In this document: positions 17,010-27,684 of the stretch, piece after piece
Layout: each line of letters begins with the position of its first letter
Numbering within the stretch: position 1 is the first letter of the stretch
Assembly: GCF_029223885.1 (NCBI RefSeq)
Contig: NZ_CP119409.1
Location: 3,064,001 to 3,128,000, forward strand
Length of the DNA: 64,000 nt
DNA from: Pararhizobium gei
GTDB taxonomy: Bacteria; Pseudomonadota; Alphaproteobacteria; Rhizobiales; Rhizobiaceae
Reading direction: 5' to 3'
Notes under the pieces: generated by a model
Databases searched by the model: none
Seen by the model: the letters and a program-made list of their open reading frames with translations, nothing else
What the model was told of the DNA's origin: nothing
Program-made: the position numbers and the translations under genes

Positions 17010-18689
<1,680 letters not shown>

Positions 18690-18778
18690 CTCCGCGCTTT
18701 CCCCAAGTCGCAATTTGATCAAGCACATCCCAGCAATGCCCCCTGGAGGGACAATGCACCGGTTCCCCTCCGGCAGTG

Positions 18779-19903
18779 TTACCGCGCCAGAATATCGCGC
18801 ATCTCGACGAGGTTCGACCGCACGCGCAGAATGTAGAAGCCCATCGTGGCGAGATGTGTGGCGAACAATCCGTCTTCGCGCGCATTTGAAATCAGCATCG
18901 GCTGGATGGACAGGCTCTTGCGCAGCTGCCTGAGGCTTTCTGACCAGATCGGGGTCAGGTTGCGCTCGGCTATGATGCTGTCGAAGTCGGCACCCGTCGC
19001 CGAGAGAATGCCGTAATAGCCGTAGAGCTGGCCATAGGCAAACCAGAAGCGGTCGTCGGCCCTCACGTCGAAAAGACCGCCATTATAGTTTTCCGAGCGT
19101 TCCCGCAGAATGGCAGATGTGCCGCCGATCGAACTGGCGATCCGATCCATGAATTCCAGAAAATTGTCTGCGCGTGCATCGAAGACAGCTGCACAGGTGG
19201 AAAGCGCCGTGTTGAAGGTCCGAAGATCATCCGCCGCGGCGCGATACTGCGTCGGCGTCGGCGTCAGGAACCCAAAGGGCGAGAGGCCGAAATACCAGTT
19301 GGTTTCGTCATACTGCATCTTGCTGCGGGCGCTCTGCAGCTGCGCATTGATGCCCGAGGTGCCGCGCATGCGCACCAGCGAATCCACAAGCTCGACCGTC
19401 GTGCGGCGCACCGCTTCGTTGACGCCACGCTGGAACGAAGCCTTGTTGTCGAGCCACGGCGTCTCATCCCAGTCGAGCCCGAAGAGCCCGGCCTTGTACA
19501 ACACCATCGAAGAAATCCAGGCATTCTGATCGACGTTGAAATCGATCAGATCCGCCGTTACATCGACGATCGCAGAACGCTCGCAGCTATTGGCGGGTGC
19601 CGTCTGCCCTTCTGGCACCTTGACCGGCAGCCCAGCATCATTCTTGCGCTCGGCGAGATTGTAGCGGTTGACATAGTCGGGATCAAAATTCGTCCAGAGC
19701 TGCGTCTGCCAGAAGAAATAGCCATACAGGGCGACGAGAGCGATAAGGAGAAGGCCGAACGGACCCTTTATGATCCAGCTTCGTCCGCTGAACCAGGCAC
19801 CTATCGCGACGAAGGGCGAGAGGACAAAGGCAATCGCCAGCCCGATGCCGCGGCCGATGGCAGAAAACACGCGCTGGAAAAACGCGACGATCGGATCAAG
19901 CAT
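18779..19903 (-). CDS. DUF2333 family inner-membrane protein
   Basis: A 374-aa protein with an amphipathic or hydrophobic N-terminus (residues 1-35), a clear membrane helix at about 48-67 ([17 protein letters not shown]) and a large, probably periplasmic, helical domain. Segments such as [14 protein letters not shown] and [20 protein letters not shown] fit the DUF2333 family, whose function is unknown. Its start overlaps the upstream gene's stop by eight bases, indicating translational coupling. It is the last gene of the coiled-coil/AAA+ cluster, where it could be the membrane anchor. Confidence 0.82.
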
Positions 19904-21194
19904 TGGTATCCTCCATGAGCCCGTAAAGACGTTTACGGAACGCCACCTTGTCCCTGAGATATGTGCCGGTCAGCGTCGCCACAACATATTCCCTGAACTT
20001 TTCATTGTAATGATCATAGGTCGCGTAAAACCCCTGCTTGTCGAAAACGAAGCGGGAGACGAAATCCCGCGGCACGAGCTGCGAAATCAGCCGGTTGGTC
20101 AGCCACTGGTCGGGGTGATCAGGCGCAGCGCGCACCAGAAGAAACCGGTTCTGCGGGGCAACCTCCTGCATTTTGATCGTGCCGGATGTCGCGATCGTGC
20201 GGATCATCGACTGCAGGAGCGGATAGGCGCCATCAGCCGATACCAGCGCCGAGTTGCGGTGCATCCAGGTCTGGAGCCAGATCGAATCGATGGCGGCGAT
20301 GTCCATTGCGGGATCGGCCTGATTGACCAGCCCGCGCAAAACCATGTCGGCGCGATGCCGGTAGAGGCCGGAGCTTTCCACCCATGACGCCTGGGGCAAT
20401 TGCAGTCTTTTCGTCGAGGCCAGGAATTCGTAGATGCGCTGATGGTCGGTCAAACCGATATAGCTGACCTGCCAGGGCCGGGAACGGCGGAAGCCCGGCA
20501 CCGAGGGATCGCAGATCACCGTGGTGGTCTTCTCGTCAAGGAACACATAAACTCCGCCGAAATGATTGGCCCAATAGGCCTCGTGCCGGAAGACCAGTTG
20601 ATCGGGCACCAGAGCATTTTCCCGGATATCGCCGGTGACTTTGGCAAGCTCGACCATGCGGTTCAGGAGCGCATCGTCCGCCCAGGCTGTCGGCTGCGTC
20701 TTCAGCCGGTCGACGAGCGCGCGCAACTCCGCGGCTTTCCCCAGCATGTCCTCGGCCGACATCACGCGAAAGCGCACTTCGTTGATCGACAGCAGGTCGT
20801 CGATGTCGTTGACGACGGAGACCGAGTCCTCGATCTCGCCGAACAGCGCATCCTTGATCGTCACAGCATTGATAGCACGCGCATTGGCCGCGAAGAACTC
20901 ATGCATCAAAGCCGCAGTGTTGGAAAAGCTCGTATGGACAACAGGAAGTTCCTGCTGAGCAGGTGTGAGAATGATAAAGCGCCGGTTGACCCGGTTCGGA
21001 TCGAGGTAATCGCGGTCGCCGATCTCGTCGGCGATTTCGGGCGAAAACCCGGTCATGTCAATGCTAAAGGTCGAGAGCGCGGTGGGGCGCAGGCCAAACC
21101 CCTGCAGCGCCTTGTTGTAGCGCGCAATCAGATGCGGCTCGGAAATTTCGAGCAGTCGGCCATAGATCAGTTCGGCTTCGAGGAGACGTTTCAT
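19896..21194 (-). CDS. Conserved protein of unknown function (432 aa)
   Basis: A 432-aa protein without signal peptide or membrane helix. I recall such proteins being labelled DUF6638 but cannot verify it. Visible features are a mixed alpha/beta composition, a central segment GGVYVFLDEKTTTVICDPSV and a C-terminal basic stretch LRDKVAFRKRLYGLMED. No catalytic motif is recognisable. It is translationally coupled to DUF2333 (eight-base overlap) and follows the HTH antitoxin gene by 24 bases. Its job is best read from context: a soluble partner of the AAA+ ATPase and membrane protein encoded beside it. Confidence 0.8.
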   Translation of the reverse strand: MKRLLEAELIYGRLLEISEPHLIARYNKALQGFGLRPTALSTFSIDMTGFSPEIADEIGDRDYLDPNRVNRRFIILTPAQQELPVVHTSFSNTAALMHEFFAANARAINAVTIKDALFGEIEDSVSVVNDIDDLLSINEVRFRVMSAEDMLGKAAELRALVDRLKTQPTAWADDALLNRMVELAKVTGDIRENALVPDQLVFRHEAYWANHFGGVYVFLDEKTTTVICDPSVPGFRRSRPWQVSYIGLTDHQRIYEFLASTKRLQLPQASWVESSGLYRHRADMVLRGLVNQADPAMDIAAIDSIWLQTWMHRNSALVSADGAYPLLQSMIRTIATSGTIKMQEVAPQNRFLLVRAAPDHPDQWLTNRLISQLVPRDFVSRFVFDKQGFYATYDHYNEKFREYVVATLTGTYLRDKVAFRKRLYGLMEDTNA

Positions 21195-21218
21195 GCGTTT
21201 GCTGCGGCTTTGCGTTGA

Positions 21219-21635
21219 TCAATCATCTTTAGCCGGCGCTTCGTCGCGTGTTGGCACGACATCGTCGAGATCCAGGCGAAGCACCCTTGCAATCGCTTTC
21301 AGCACGGAGATGCTGCCTTCCTTCTTTCCTGTCTCGATCTCGGAAATGTAGGCTGTGCTAATACCGGCGGCAGCTGCGAGGTCCTTGGCGGAGAGCCCGC
21401 GAAACTCGCGCCATACCCGTACCGGGTGTTCCCCGTTGATAAGCCGATCGACAAATTCGGCAGGCACGCGCTCTTCTTCACCTGCTGCCACGCGAGACTC
21501 ATAGGCCTTGACCGCCAGCAAGTCCTCCAGATCCTCGACCAGCTCCGACTGCTTGATGAGCATGTTATAATCGCTGCGGCTCAGGAGGACCATCTCCTCG
21601 CCATTGGGCGTCGTGAAAGAAACGGGCGTATTCAT
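21219..21635 (-). CDS. XRE-type HTH antitoxin
   Basis: A 138-aa protein with an N-terminal toxin-binding half (residues 1-65, including LLSRSDYNMLIKQSELVEDLE) and a Cro/cI helix-turn-helix at about 78-130 (LSAKDLAAAAGISTAYISEI). It follows the RelE-like toxin with an ATGA overlap, so the toxin gene comes first, as in higBA-type modules. It should bind and silence the toxin and repress the pair. Because the pair lies inside a gene cluster on the same strand, this repressor may also affect the downstream genes. Confidence 0.87.
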   Translation of the reverse strand: MNTPVSFTTPNGEEMVLLSRSDYNMLIKQSELVEDLEDLLAVKAYESRVAAGEEERVPAEFVDRLINGEHPVRVWREFRGLSAKDLAAAAGISTAYISEIETGKKEGSISVLKAIARVLRLDLDDVVPTRDEAPAKDD

Positions 21636-21892
21636 GGCTCCAATCCTTTATAAACCTCTCCGCGGCCGGCGATCTTGATGACATCGATGACCAACCCGTC
21701 CTCGTTGAAAATCACACGCCAGTCGCCGACCCGAAGTCGATAATATTCGACACCTTGTAGCTTCTTGACATTGTTGGCGAGCGTTGCGGGGTCGTCGGCA
21801 TATTGCTGTACCTTCTGCCGTATTCGCCTCGCGTCGGTCGCAGGCATGCGCGTCAGGGCCTTGATGGCCTCCTTTTCATATACAACGCGCAT
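21632..21892 (-). CDS. RelE/ParE-superfamily toxin
   Basis: An 86-aa toxin with the RelE fold pattern: RVVYEKEAIKALTRMP at the start, then LQGVEYYRLRVGDWRVIFN, whose Arg residues and the C-terminal VIKIAGRGEVYKG match mRNA-interferase members. The ATG at 21892 has AGGA five bases upstream; the ATG two codons earlier overlaps that site. Its stop overlaps the antitoxin start by ATGA. It lies 60 bases after the AAA+ ATPase gene on the same strand. Confidence 0.88.
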   Translation of the reverse strand: MRVVYEKEAIKALTRMPATDARRIRQKVQQYADDPATLANNVKKLQGVEYYRLRVGDWRVIFNEDGLVIDVIKIAGRGEVYKGLEP

Positions 21893-21952
21893 AACCATCC
21901 TAATCCGATAGAACCAGTTCAGGCAAGAAAATTCGCCGACAGCGAATTACCC

Positions 21953-23863
21953 CTACCACCGGCCATCCCGTTTCATCGCCTCCATCTCTCGAAGCGCCTT
22001 CTCGCGCTGCCTTTCGCGGCGTATGATGTCGGTCACCGCGGCATCGTCGGACTTGTCGGTGTAGCGGAATTCCGAGTCGGCGTAGCGGTTGATCTCCTGC
22101 ATCACCATGTCCATCGTAACAGGCCCGCGCAGGTCTTCGATCATGGCCTTTTTCTCATCATAGCCCTTGTGCATGAAGGCGTCCGGCGTCGCGAACCATT
22201 CGTCTGGCAGATCGACATCCATGGCCCGCATCTTGATCGCGTCGGTGATGTTCTTGATCGCCCGCCCGGTGAAGCGCGGCTCGGCCACCTTGATCATGTG
22301 CAGGTAGGCACCGACATCCGCCAGCGTCCTGATCCCGCCATGCGCCGTTTCGTACTTCTCCCAGACGGCAGCGAGGCCCTCCTCCTTCGGACGGGAATGC
22401 GCCTCGTAGGACTGGGACACAGCCTTTTTGATTTCCTGCCCGGCAAACAGCTGGTGCTCGCCGAGCGGGATCGTATGGTTCTTTCCGACGAGAAGAGCGA
22501 AGATGTCGATGTAATCGCTCTCCGACTGCGGCCCGTCCACCAGCCAGCGGGCACCGGCGCGCTGGCGCAAAGCATCATCGACGTTCTCGGGATAGTTCGA
22601 GAACATGCCGAAGGTGCAGTTTCCACGGATCACGGTGGATGCGCCGGCAAAGCTTTCCATCAGCACCGCCGTCACCTCGTGCTGGCCGGCCGAAGCACGG
22701 TCGTCGGAGCGCTTGGCGGCGACCTGATCGACATCGTCGATCGTTCCGAAGCCGATGGCGCGCGGGTTGACGACATTGTTGACGAATTCCTTGCAGTTCT
22801 GGCCGGACTTGCCCTGATAGGAGGAGATCTGGTCAACGCCGAAATTCTCGTAGTGGAAGGCATAGCCGGCAATCTGGCAGTAGTCGTTGAGCATGCCGGC
22901 CAGCATCTGGATGAGGATGGTCTTGCCGGTGCCGGGCATGCCGTCGCCGATGAAGGTGAAGAGAAAACCGCCGAGTTCGACGAAGGGGTTCATCTGCCGG
23001 TCGAAATCATAGGCCATCAGCATCTTGGCGAGCTTCAGCGCCTGATATTTGGCGATATGGTTGCCAATGATCTCTTCCGGCTTCTTGAAGGTCATGGACA
23101 GCGGCTTGCGCTTGGCGCCGGGGGCGACGTCGAAGCCGTTCAGGGTGAAATCGTCCTGATCGAGCCGGATATGTACGTTTTCAAAGCTGGCAAGACCGGT
23201 GAAGCGCGCCTTCCTGCCGATCAGCCCTTCGATCGCCACCCGTGCGAAGGCGCGTGCCCGGCTGGTCAGCGCCGCGTCGTCCGGGCTCCCGCCAATCGTT
23301 TTGTCCAAAGCCGAGATCATGCCTTTCAGCGCATCCTGCGGCGTGTCGAACAGAAAGTCCGGCTCTGCGCCGTCTTCCACCGGCTCTCCGTCTCCCGGCA
23401 GCGTCGACCCCAGATAGGCCGCGAAGGTGAAGGCGGCGATATAGGCAGATGCCGACAGCAGCGCCTTGAACTGCGACGCCTCCTCGCCCCCGAGCGGAGA
23501 CGAGGCATTGCGCGCCTGCAGGCTTTCCAGATCGGTCTGCCGGGCGAAAACCTCGGCGACGGCAAGCGCGACCTGCAGGCCCCGCCGGGCGCGGTAGACA
23601 AGCGCGTGCTGGGCTAAGGACATCATGGGATCGCCGGGCCGAACCGACTGCACCGTCTTGACCAGTTCGACCTCGCGCGTCCGTCTCTGCCCGCCCGTCG
23701 AAACCGTCGACACGAAGCGGCGGCCGGTCCCGGCCAGCGCCGTTCCCGATGAGGGGTCGTCGGCCTCCAGCAGGATCAGCCGCGTTACCATGCCCTGCGC
23801 CAGCGCCTGATGCCTGGCGATGTCATCCTCGTGCAATGTTGTCAGACCTGCATTCAATGACAT
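21953..23863 (-). CDS. AAA+ ATPase of a conserved unknown cluster
   Basis: A 636-aa protein. Residues 1-250 are a helical N-domain with no recognised family. The AAA+ core starts near 295: Walker A GDGMPGTGKT at 306-315 with Lys314, a Walker B-like hydrophobic strand ending IDDVD at 375-379, sensor 1 Asn423 in MFSNYPENVDDALRQR with arginine-finger candidates at 433 and 435. The C-terminal region (about 520-636) ends in a charged helix. This is a remodelling or chaperone ATPase type. It has no protease domain or HEAT-like effector. It follows the 382-aa unknown gene by two bases, so both are surely one operon. Confidence 0.88.
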   Translation of the reverse strand: MSLNAGLTTLHEDDIARHQALAQGMVTRLILLEADDPSSGTALAGTGRRFVSTVSTGGQRRTREVELVKTVQSVRPGDPMMSLAQHALVYRARRGLQVALAVAEVFARQTDLESLQARNASSPLGGEEASQFKALLSASAYIAAFTFAAYLGSTLPGDGEPVEDGAEPDFLFDTPQDALKGMISALDKTIGGSPDDAALTSRARAFARVAIEGLIGRKARFTGLASFENVHIRLDQDDFTLNGFDVAPGAKRKPLSMTFKKPEEIIGNHIAKYQALKLAKMLMAYDFDRQMNPFVELGGFLFTFIGDGMPGTGKTILIQMLAGMLNDYCQIAGYAFHYENFGVDQISSYQGKSGQNCKEFVNNVVNPRAIGFGTIDDVDQVAAKRSDDRASAGQHEVTAVLMESFAGASTVIRGNCTFGMFSNYPENVDDALRQRAGARWLVDGPQSESDYIDIFALLVGKNHTIPLGEHQLFAGQEIKKAVSQSYEAHSRPKEEGLAAVWEKYETAHGGIRTLADVGAYLHMIKVAEPRFTGRAIKNITDAIKMRAMDVDLPDEWFATPDAFMHKGYDEKKAMIEDLRGPVTMDMVMQEINRYADSEFRYTDKSDDAAVTDIIRRERQREKALREMEAMKRDGRW

Positions 23864-23865
23864 GG

Positions 23866-25014
23866 CTACACCTCGCTGATGACCTGATTGCCGGAAATCA
23901 CATGCACCTTGTAGTCACCAAAAATTGCAGCTGCTTCGCCGGCGGCATAGAGCGCCTGGTAGGCGTCGTGCGGCACCAGCGCATGTTTTTCGTAGGAACT
24001 CACGCCCATGCGAGTCGCCTCCAGATTGTCCGTATCGATATGAAATTCCTCGCTGCCCGGCGTGCTCGACCAGAAGCCGCGCGCGGCCGGGCGCTCGGCT
24101 TTTGAGAAGACCTCCTGCACAGTCCAGGTCAGAAGCCAGGCATTTTCGGGTTTGCGCACCTTCGACAGGATCTCGTTGATCTTGGCGTTGTTCTCTGTAA
24201 TCCCGGCGGAATAGAACGGGCCGAGCACGATACGCCGCAGCTGCTTGGGGTGAAGCTCGGGAAAATCCTTGTCGAGATTGGTGGCGATCGTCACCGGCGT
24301 CAGCGAATAGGCGCTGTTTTTCAAGGCGAAATCATCGAAACGGCTGGCAAGATCGGGGTTCAGCAGCCCACCCACCGGCAACGGAATATCGACGGCGGGA
24401 TTGAGTTTGCCGTCCGGTGTGACCAGCATTTCGACGATCTTCTCAGACGAATCCTCGATCGTCGCCATGTAAACCATCGGCAGCGTGCTCGTTCCGTCAA
24501 AGGCGCCCCAGGACATGACATAATAGGGTCTCAGTGTCTTGGGGTTGACCGCAACGCGTATGGTTTCCGGCATGATGAAGGGCGAAAATATATCGCCCTT
24601 GCCGATCTGCTCGAGATAGAGCCGCTCTGCCATGCGCGCCTGCAATGCCTCAGGAAAAGCCTTGCGCCGCAGAATGAAATCGGCCATTTCGCCCCGCAAG
24701 GCGTCGGCCTGAGGGATCTCCGCAAGCCGCTTGTCCGCCGTCTGGCGGTCGTTCTCCAGTTCCAGCACGTTCTGGAACACCGGGAAGCCGCTTTCCGCGC
24801 GGGATATGCGAAACTGTTCGACGAAGCCGATACGATTTTCCCAACAGGAGAAGGAAGACTTCAGTCGTGCGAGATAGGGCACGACGATCTCGCCCACGAC
24901 CGAATTCCGATAGAGCGGCGAATTGCGGTCGCCAAGGAAGATTTCAAGCCCGCCGAGCGCTGCGCGGATGGAAGCGAAATATTGGCCCACGGGGCCCTCG
25001 GTGGCAGCGTTCAT
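23866..25014 (-). CDS. Unknown protein, AAA+ cluster (382 aa)
   Basis: A 382-aa soluble protein I do not recognise. The first 130 residues are helical and charged (DRQTADKRLAEIPQADALRG); the middle has strand-rich text such as IRVAVNPKTLRPYYVMSWGA and MVYMATIEDSSEKIVEMLV; the end VHVISGNQVISEV is also strand-like. No signal peptide or membrane segment. It lies two bases ahead of the AAA+ ATPase gene, so it is most likely a direct partner or substrate adaptor of that ATPase. The RIME-like repeat separates it from the coiled-coil gene upstream. Confidence 0.78.
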   Translation of the reverse strand: MNAATEGPVGQYFASIRAALGGLEIFLGDRNSPLYRNSVVGEIVVPYLARLKSSFSCWENRIGFVEQFRISRAESGFPVFQNVLELENDRQTADKRLAEIPQADALRGEMADFILRRKAFPEALQARMAERLYLEQIGKGDIFSPFIMPETIRVAVNPKTLRPYYVMSWGAFDGTSTLPMVYMATIEDSSEKIVEMLVTPDGKLNPAVDIPLPVGGLLNPDLASRFDDFALKNSAYSLTPVTIATNLDKDFPELHPKQLRRIVLGPFYSAGITENNAKINEILSKVRKPENAWLLTWTVQEVFSKAERPAARGFWSSTPGSEEFHIDTDNLEATRMGVSSYEKHALVPHDAYQALYAAGEAAAIFGDYKVHVISGNQVISEV

Positions 25015-25041
25015 GATGGCTTACTCGGAGTGTGGGGAGGG

Positions 25042-25190
25042 TTCCCCCCCTCTGTCGGCGATGCCGACATCTCCCCCTCAAGGGGGGAGATCATTCTTTT
25101 GCCCGTCGGCTTGCGTGATACGGCCAACAAAGCCGGCGATTGATCTCCCCCCTTGAGGGGGAGATGTCCCGGAGGGACAGAGGGGGGGAA
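25042..25190. repeat. RIME-like long inverted repeat
   Basis: Two arms of about 50 bases, 25042-25093 and 25141-25190, are inverted copies of one another around a 47-base spacer. Each arm contains its own nested palindrome (CTCCCCCTCAAGGGGGGAG in the left arm). The arms match exactly except in a short central part, GGCGATGCC against CCGGAGGG, each itself a small hairpin loop, which looks like compensated change. This has the form of the Rhizobium intergenic mosaic elements (RIME). It fills the gap between the coiled-coil gene and the 382-aa gene and would fold strongly in their mRNA. Confidence 0.8.
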
Positions 25191-25216
25191 GCCTCGGCAA
25201 AAACCAGATAAAACCA

Positions 25217-26305
25217 TCACTGCTTCACGTAATTTGCCGAATTATGCTTGTCCATCACCGACTGGAAACGCCTGGCAAACGCATCATCGGCCAGTTTCTT
25301 GCGGCGCTGGATGTCCTGGGTAGAGAGCATGTTCTTCTCGTGCATCTCAAGGAGGTCGCCGATATGGCGCTGCGCTGCAGAACCGATGCCGGCCATGGTC
25401 TCTTCCGCCGCGATATCCACCTGGCTGCCCAGCGTGTTGATCTTATGAGCCACTTCCTGCTGCGCCGCCGTCTTCAAGGAATCTTCGAGCGCCTTGTAAA
25501 GAACGATGCGCTGTTCGGTATCGATGGTAAGCTTGTTGATCAGCGTATTTTGCGCAGCGATCTGGTTGTTAAGCGAATCGACGAAGGTCTGGAACATGGA
25601 GGTGTAGCGTTCCAGCGTCTGGCTCTCGGCCAGAAGCTCCTGCTCCTTGGCCTGGGACTGGTTGTACTCGGTCGCCAGCACGGAGCGTTCGCCTTCGAGC
25701 TGCGTGCGGGAGATCTGGTCTGTCGAAGCGGCGATCTTGTTTTCGATATCCATCAGGAGAGGATTGAGTTCTTCGATGCGTTTCTGCGTCGCCTGAAGAT
25801 TGGCCATCGTGGTCTTGCGGCGCTCGATCACCTGCACAAGGCTTGCCTCGGAGGTCTTGTACCGCTGGTCGAGCACGTTCTTCTGCTCTTTCAGAATGCC
25901 GACGATGGTATCGGACTTGGACAGCAATTCCTGCAGATTGCCGGCGAGCGACATATTGCGGACGCGGTCGGTGCGCATGCGCTGGGCGCTCTGCTTGGAG
26001 AAGATGCCAATGAACTTCTCGTAGCCGGTATAGGTCTTCATGTTTTCGAATTCGGCGCCGAACACGTTGGTCGCGTCCTCTAGCCCGATGATGAGATCGG
26101 CAATATTACCCTCCATCACCTTCTGCTGGTTGATGACATCCTGAATACGGGCATTCTCGATGTCGAAATTGGCATCGCCAAGCTTGGTGTCGGACTTGGC
26201 GAACTGCTCCAGCACGATGCCGGACTTCTCCAGCTTGCCGCGCATCTGGTCGACGATGCCACGCGTTTTCTCGATTTCGCTCTCAAAATTCTGAAGTGTC
26301 GCCAT
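25217..26305 (-). CDS. Long coiled-coil protein, AAA+ cluster
   Basis: A 362-aa almost fully helical protein with heptad-like stretches (ERRKTTMANLQATQKRIEEL, EYNQSQAKEQELLAESQTLE). It lacks a signal peptide and membrane helix. The overall look recalls PspA or TelA-type helical proteins that lie on the membrane or in assemblies, but no family motif is certain. The ATG at 26305 has GGGGG six bases upstream. It is the first gene of the cluster; 150 bases ahead of it, up to the cytochrome gene, hold its promoter (an A+T-rich TTATATAAT stretch near 26370). The RIME-like repeat follows its stop. Confidence 0.8.
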   Translation of the reverse strand: MATLQNFESEIEKTRGIVDQMRGKLEKSGIVLEQFAKSDTKLGDANFDIENARIQDVINQQKVMEGNIADLIIGLEDATNVFGAEFENMKTYTGYEKFIGIFSKQSAQRMRTDRVRNMSLAGNLQELLSKSDTIVGILKEQKNVLDQRYKTSEASLVQVIERRKTTMANLQATQKRIEELNPLLMDIENKIAASTDQISRTQLEGERSVLATEYNQSQAKEQELLAESQTLERYTSMFQTFVDSLNNQIAAQNTLINKLTIDTEQRIVLYKALEDSLKTAAQQEVAHKINTLGSQVDIAAEETMAGIGSAAQRHIGDLLEMHEKNMLSTQDIQRRKKLADDAFARRFQSVMDKHNSANYVKQ

Positions 26306-26861: not shown

Positions 26862-27443
26862 TCAGCTGCCGCTCATCATATCGTCCCAATGCCGCCGGCA
26901 ATAGACGGCATATTTCTCGTTGCCGCCGACTTCGACCTGCGCGCCTTCCCGCACGACTTTGCCGCCGCCGTCCAGACGCACGACCATGGTCGCCTTGCGG
27001 CCGCAGTGGCAAATGGTGCGGACCTCGCGCATCTCGTCGGCAATGGCAAGCAGTGCCATGGAACCCGGAAACAGCTTGCCCTGGAAGTCGGTCCGCAAAC
27101 CATAGGCCATGACGGGTATGCCTATGCGGTCGGCGATGCGCGCCAGCTGCCAGACCTGATCTTCACCGAGAAACTGCGCCTCATCGACGAAGACGCAGGC
27201 GATGGTCTCTTCCGCGTGCATGCGCCCGATCATCGCAAAAAGATCATCCGCATGGGAAAAGGCGATCGCATCGTCGCTGAGACCGATGCGGGAGGACACG
27301 CGCCCCTTACCGGCCCGGTCGTCGAAGGCCGCAATAAGGATCACGGTGCGCATGCCCCGTTCGCGGTAGTTGTAGGCCGCCTGCAGAAGCAAGGTGGATT
27401 TTCCGGCATTCATCGTCGCGTAGCTGAAATACAGTTTTGCCAT
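26862..27443 (-). CDS. tdk: Thymidine kinase
   Basis: A 193-aa type II (TK1-like) thymidine kinase, the ATP-dependent salvage step from thymidine to dTMP. The P-loop is MNAGKST at residues 11-17, the catalytic Glu in FVDEAQFL near 85, the zinc-site cysteines in ICHCGRK and the C-terminal KYAVYCRRHW. The ATG at 27443 has AGAGGA upstream; an extension to 27482 is unlikely. Confidence 0.95.
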   Translation of the reverse strand: MAKLYFSYATMNAGKSTLLLQAAYNYRERGMRTVILIAAFDDRAGKGRVSSRIGLSDDAIAFSHADDLFAMIGRMHAEETIACVFVDEAQFLGEDQVWQLARIADRIGIPVMAYGLRTDFQGKLFPGSMALLAIADEMREVRTICHCGRKATMVVRLDGGGKVVREGAQVEVGGNEKYAVYCRRHWDDMMSGS

Positions 27444-27684
27444 GGCATCCTCTTCTGTATGTTCATTGCTGGTGAAGAACACGGGACAACGTGGGAAGCC
27501 ATAGCGCAGAAACGAAAGTCACAGAAAAACGTCGGTTTGCGCGAGAACCGAGCCAATGCGACATGCCGCGTCGTTTTAGGCAGGCTATCAATCCAAAGGC
27601 CTAATACACTCGAAGCCAACACCAAGGCGCTTGAACTGGCGGACATTTGGTGATTGGCTAAAACAATAAAAGCAGGGGAATATC

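Follow-up and report, generated by a model that had tools for sequence, protein, structure and literature searches.

A conserved four-gene unit around an AAA ATPase, with an exchangeable gene for a predicted membrane protein, in Pararhizobium gei and its relatives

What could an AAA ATPase, a predicted coiled-coil protein, two further proteins and a predicted membrane protein, all encoded close together on the minus strand of the Pararhizobium gei genome, do together? We addressed this question in a stretch of 64,000 nucleotides (contig NZ_CP119409.1 of assembly GCF_029223885.1, positions 3,064,001 to 3,128,000; hereafter the window), which belongs to a genome of 4.75 Mb on three contigs. An initial annotation of this stretch had interpreted five genes as parts of a membrane-linked remodelling machine, and we could confirm from the sequence that the five minus-strand genes are present with the sizes reported there and that the ATPase carries a Walker A motif at residues 306-315. 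Comparison with related loci gives good support for four of the genes as a conserved unit, the core, in terms of composition, order and co-occurrence. The fifth gene, for a predicted membrane protein, is exchangeable: its place is taken by DUF2333 in the window and by DUF1523 elsewhere.

Read along the minus strand, the core begins with the open reading frame of CC, the predicted coiled-coil protein (25217..26305; 362 amino acids from the ATG at 26305), followed by P4 (23866..25014; 382 amino acids, with a helical N-terminal and a beta-rich C-terminal part), the AAA ATPase (21953..23863; 636 amino acids; PF00004, 42.2 bits) and the DUF6638 protein (19896..21194; 432 amino acids; PF20343, 253.5 bits, E 5e-75, cut-off 27). 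The fifth gene, on the same strand, encodes the DUF2333 predicted membrane protein (18779..19903; 374 amino acids; PF10095, 68.6 bits, cut-off 22). The tight spacing that had been described holds for P4 and the ATPase, which are 2 bases apart, and for DUF6638 and DUF2333, which overlap by 8 bases, but not for CC and P4, where the gap measures 202 bases. A pattern scan located a G+C-rich hairpin of 10 pairs in this gap (25069..25091, assigned to neither strand).

We searched for the core genes, at a threshold of E 0.001, in 150 evenly drawn genomes of the order, the window's genome included. The ATPase was present in 27 of them, CC in 28, P4 in 26 and DUF6638 in 28, and of the 29 genomes in which at least one core gene was found, 26 possessed all four. 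The separation of the genes in most genomes, which the initial annotation had named as an argument against a single system, is thus not observed for the four core genes. Three genomes deviate: G247 is fragmented, with the ATPase recovered only as a 39-residue end and P4 not found, G137 has a divergent CC-like gene as its sole core-type gene, and G207 contains, of the core, only DUF6638, accompanied by DUF2333 on a contig of 3.2 kb.

Gene order was compared in 126 loci, 80 named ones and 46 others including the window. These loci are not independent of one another and were picked for holding the ATPase or DUF6638, so that the order is conditional on that choice, and the named loci, the best 80 of 526 confirmed stretches, are biased towards Rhizobiaceae and near relatives. 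CC, P4, the ATPase and DUF6638 follow each other in this order on one strand in 123 loci (80/80 named, 43/46 others), and the remaining three (L059, L065 and L066) end at contig borders. The window cluster is flanked upstream by the thymidine kinase gene tdk (26862..27482, minus strand; PF00265) and downstream by the formate-tetrahydrofolate ligase gene fhs (17010..18728, minus strand; PF01268), both outside the system. Among the fetched stretches of the 80 named loci, 62 contain tdk and 74 contain fhs, and both genes together flank the cluster in 59, indicating that the cluster is a fixed region in Rhizobiaceae. The closest named relatives of the window's ATPase belong to Rhizobium and Pararhizobium, and the core has most likely been inherited vertically.

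For the individual proteins we aligned the sequences of the window and of loci L042-L073 after dropping near-identical or cut rows, which left 28 of 33 rows for the ATPase, 25 of 31 for CC, 27 of 33 for P4 (the dropped rows including the pieces of a split gene in L045 and an end-cut piece in L059) and 27 of 32 for DUF6638. The AAA module of the window ATPase spans residues 308-438. The protein has a Walker A motif (GDGMPGTGKT, 306-315), a Walker B motif (TIDD, with D376 and D377), N423, R433/R435 and a GR pair at 533-534. From the general anatomy of AAA modules we take N423 to be sensor 1 and R433/R435 to represent the Arg-finger region. Within the Walker A pattern GDGxPGTGKT every position but x is invariant in all 28 sequences, and Walker A, the Walker B aspartates, N423, R433, R435 and the GR pair are invariant in these 28 as well as in all 19 sequences of a more divergent set. 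Classical AAA ATPases, i.e. CDC48, proteasomal Rpt, FtsH/i-AAA, AFG2 and fidgetin-like proteins, share the Walker A motif, an acidic Walker B, the sensor 1 Asn and the Arg-finger region with the window family. However, their second Walker B acid is Glu, whereas Walker B ends in Asp-Asp in 28/28 and 19/19 members of the window family, the position of the catalytic glutamate being Asp throughout; D377 aligns with the Glu of AFG2 chain 7wd3. A second difference is the N-terminal part of about 300 residues, for which no Pfam match was obtained at E 0.01 in the 28 members. An Asp-Asp Walker B is also found in the D2 domain of NSF. The missing Glu weakens the claim of ordinary hydrolysis and suggests that ATP might be hydrolysed slowly or in a regulated manner, but the AAA module stands because all 28 members match PF00004 at E 0.01.

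For the other three core proteins, CC, P4 and DUF6638, we found no relative of known function. The 432-residue protein, at first listed as unrecognised, is a member of DUF6638, a family that has a name but no known function, whereas P4, listed in the same way, has indeed no convincing Pfam family match. The model of DUF6638 has a pLDDT of 89.9, a fold search with it gave no confident match, and no paper on DUF6638 was found in the literature searched, most subscription papers lying outside that search. The C-terminal part of P4 weakly resembles a tunnelling fold (beta-beta-alpha-alpha-beta-beta unit). The heptad bias of CC, with 9.3% of sequence windows as compared to a mean of 3.1% in 100 shuffles, exceeds that of the other four proteins and is suggestive of a coiled coil; the Pfam families listed for 25 CC members, 25 out of 28, include no convincing match, and in a search of PDB sequences at E 0.1 CC matched two GCN4-fusion chains only. 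Hydropathy analysis gave no transmembrane segment in CC, P4, the ATPase or DUF6638 of the window.

A gene for a predicted membrane protein is a regular neighbour of the core. In 79 of the 80 named loci no more than 219 bases separate DUF2333 from DUF6638, and in the last one, L150, the stretch ends before it. Among the other 46 loci, the distance between DUF2333 and the core is 1.7 kb or less in 26, and DUF1523 (PF07509) is a neighbour in 15, its identity having been checked by Pfam for four of the proteins. The two are unrelated according to profile comparison (0.4% probability) and are found together beside the core in none of the 126 loci; in G481 and G358 DUF1523 is located at the locus and DUF2333 on a different contig. 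Of the five loci with neither gene beside the core, two (L062 and L065) run into contig ends, and the other three are complete records, each of which carries one of the genes elsewhere on the same record: DUF2333 in L225 and L226, two Vibrio records of 0.93 Mb, and DUF1523 (34.7% identity, E 3e-11) in L228, the Rhizobium leguminosarum plasmid pRlX5, which has no membrane gene beside the core.

In the window's DUF2333 protein, one or more N-terminal hydrophobic segments precede a part of about 300 residues in which two cysteines are conserved. Each of the 19 sequences aligned, out of 22 available, has just two cysteines, and their positions behind the hydrophobic region are conserved. DUF1523 has two hydrophobic segments in 9/9 aligned sequences, taken from nine loci with six later-found ones left out. 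The cysteine pair and the hydrophobic segments fit proteins with an exported domain, the topology being a prediction. One report names a DUF2333 gene as a neighbour at the Pseudomonas fluorescens hcp3 locus (PMC5256989), and no function for DUF2333 or DUF1523 was found in the literature searched, as far as the sources were accessible. On a 0.58-Mb plasmid of Pseudomonas putida (L230, 8001-9923) DUF1523 lies beside a gene for a VWA-domain protein, the core being absent from the stretch read.

Based on this arrangement we tentatively propose, short of calling it probable, that the core proteins act as one cytoplasmic AAA+ machine that would be tethered to the inner membrane by DUF2333 or DUF1523. 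The ATPase would form a ring that acts at the membrane on CC, the helical protein and likely oligomeric substrate or scaffold, whose oligomers it would remodel or take apart. P4 and DUF6638 might serve as adaptors or regulators, and DUF2333 or DUF1523 might provide the membrane link, passing the action on to the periplasmic side or sensing it. AAA+ remodelling itself is a known kind of mechanism, and in Vps4/ESCRT-III and PspA-type systems an AAA ATPase works close to a membrane together with a helical protein. The likeness to these systems is one of plan only, and no MIT domain is listed for the 28 window-family ATPases at E 0.01. Of the original proposal, the conserved gene set around an AAA ATPase has held up, a predicted membrane protein being its usual companion; remodelling at the membrane is a role that we infer. 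The statement that no described system has this combination agrees with our results: searches of Pfam, NCBIfam, PADLOC, PDB sequences and the literature covered yielded no described system made up of these parts. It is conceivable, if rather speculative, that the set represents a new class of bacterial membrane machines in which a four-protein AAA+ engine works with interchangeable, unrelated transmembrane adaptors, and that chromosomes of alphaproteobacteria share it with giant marine extrachromosomal elements. Such an engine would have an invariably Asp-Asp Walker B, and its subunits would include a tunnelling-fold-like protein as well as DUF6638 with its unrecognised fold.

Several observations weigh against a membrane-tethered AAA+ machine. 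The coiled-coil label of the 362-residue protein, favoured by its heptad bias, is suggestive only, as this bias lies within the range of the shuffles, at least one of which reached 13.1%. No PDB chain named PspA, Vipp1 or ESCRT-III was matched by CC at E 0.1, which leaves helical character as the evidence for a filament role of this protein. A stop interrupts the P4 gene in one locus, L045. The distribution of the core is patchy: besides the 27 of 150 genomes of the order, the ATPase was found in 2 of 115 genomes of a class sample with one genome per family, CC being present in the same two genomes, and in 24 of 378 genomes of a phylum sample, where a single one lies outside the class and contains all four core genes together with DUF1523. 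DUF6638 was detected in 8 of 385 genomes of a wider sample, in 7 of them above the cut-off.

The predicted membrane proteins are also found apart from the core. DUF2333 is not an obligatory fifth part: DUF1523 takes its place in 15 of the 126 loci, and 10 of the 33 genomes with DUF2333 among the 150 of the order are devoid of the ATPase, including G137 with its CC-like gene and G207 with DUF6638. DUF1523 occurs on 20 plasmid records and the ATPase on 10, pRlX5 being the only record common to both groups, and one Pseudomonas and one Paracoccus stretch carry DUF1523 without the core. In two Rhizobiaceae records, L205 (from G137) and L234 (R. leguminosarum pSK03), the tdk-fhs locus lacks P4, the ATPase and DUF6638 but retains DUF2333 and a divergent CC-like gene, a state that probably reflects natural partial loss. 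The occurrence of DUF2333 and DUF1523 without the core implies that these proteins have some role of their own; both families are only partly tied to the core.

Nor do the five genes form one uninterrupted cluster as initially described, since two genes that had been missed separate the ATPase from DUF6638. They encode a ParE-type toxin (21632..21898, minus strand; PF05016, 31.2 bits, cut-off 23) and an XRE/HTH_3 antitoxin-like protein (21219..21635, minus strand; PF01381, 47.8 bits, above cut-off), lie on the same strand as the core and overlap by 4 bases, and are predicted to form a type II toxin-antitoxin pair. The junction measures 70 bases or less in 29 of the 80 named loci. It holds ParE and XRE genes in 11, ParE and another small gene in 9, Phd and a PIN-like gene in 2, an unidentified pair in 2, a DUF559-type gene or its remnant in 26, and a 1.9-kb stretch in one locus. 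These assignments derive from Pfam searches with single representatives (ParE from L109 and the window, Phd from L151, DUF559 from Sinorhizobium meliloti L227, and L167, which gave no match); L227 was tied to the group of 26 loci by eye, and the labels PIN-like, CopG/RelB-like and MqsA-like were likewise given by eye only. In five relatives the ATPase is 88-90% identical to that of the window, as compared to 51-79% for ParE/XRE, and we read the pair as cargo of a variable junction outside the core.

The ATPase-DUF6638 junction of the close relatives (L105-L184) looks like an insertion hot spot. In S. meliloti Ak57 (L227) an IS element and the DUF559 gene are located between the ATPase and DUF6638; the record, with 3.7 Mb, is titled pSymB and carries the tdk-core-fhs region, and its title may be wrong.

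The toxin-antitoxin genes inside the window cluster, an AAA ATPase with a predicted membrane partner and the patchy distribution could also be explained by anti-phage defence, with the ATPase sensing or disrupting phage assembly at the membrane and the toxin-antitoxin pair perhaps serving as an abortive arm. Weak PADLOC matches of the AAA module (TRIP13, 24.8 bits; IetA, 12.0 and 11.9 bits) and the presence of the core on some large plasmids and one contig of a viral collection point in the same direction. However, the six window proteins scanned with PADLOC match at the AAA or HTH level only, and the likeness to CBASS type III (TRIP13-HORMA) consists of the weak TRIP13 match, with no HORMA or CD-NTase protein among these six. 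The ATPase was found in none of 50,697 phage records at E 1e-10, the ParE/XRE pair is absent from 69 of the 80 named loci, and the fixed place between tdk and fhs likewise speaks against defence, which we consider unlikely. The same two flanking genes are the setting for a metabolic explanation, where P4 would be a tunnelling-fold enzyme or a purine or pterin sensor and the cluster would operate in nucleotide or folate metabolism; we regard this as quite improbable.

Similar length and helical character relate CC to TelA, and TelA is present in 7 of the 22 core-bearing genomes searched, so that the cluster might be viewed as a Ter/TelA-type stress system. Comparison of the TelA profile (PF05816) with CC by hhalign, however, gave a probability of 0.24%, the Pfam families listed for 25 CC members, 25 out of 28, do not include TelA, and in those 7 genomes it is encoded on a different contig or far from the core, which renders such a relation very doubtful. 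The notion that unrelated neighbours are kept together by common descent alone, drawn from the synteny of the whole tdk-fhs region within Rhizobiaceae, is hardly credible, as other families of the Alphaproteobacteria, two Vibrio records and the viral-collection contig L229 keep the core order without tdk and fhs, and the four genes are jointly present or absent in all but 3 of the 150 genomes.

For the membrane-tethered AAA+ machine, a weak lead towards the envelope comes from S. meliloti 1021. SMc02733 of this strain is probably a core gene, as judged not by a sequence match but by counting from shmR with locus tags that we assume for choXWV and that the literature search did not confirm. The report on a ChvI DNA-binding screen lists SMc02733 in its fragment table and, in its abstract, links ExoS/ChvI to symbiosis and exopolysaccharide (PMC3687685), and shmR is given as SMc02726 in a second paper (PMC8343143). 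Tight conservation among nitrogen-fixing rhizobia, further families of the Alphaproteobacteria and large Vibrio records, with no function found for the set in the literature searched, makes it a clear target for study. Because DUF2333 and DUF1523 replace one another, they can be named as the likely membrane partner, and both families are placed in a testable context, and the two Rhizobiaceae records that keep DUF2333 without three of the core genes offer a natural comparison.

Finally, at E 1e-10 the ATPase is encoded on 10 of 72,556 plasmid records, namely on five Rhizobiaceae replicons of 3.5-4.6 Mb, one plasmid of 1.3 Mb and four Vibrio records of 0.88-0.94 Mb. All four Vibrio records also carry DUF2333, distant from the ATPase, and are typed as non-mobilizable; in the two that were read (L225 and L226) the four core genes are followed by mfd. 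In L229, which has a length of 359 kb, the order is DUF2333-CC-P4-ATPase-DUF6638, so that DUF2333 (304.8 bits) directly precedes CC, an arrangement that differs from the usual one while DUF2333 still adjoins the core. Further products of this contig are SmpB, proteins with FliG- and FliM-type domains, a ClpA/ClpB-type ATPase, DnaJ and peptide deformylase, and it may be a mobile element of very large size or else bacterial DNA that was misfiled.

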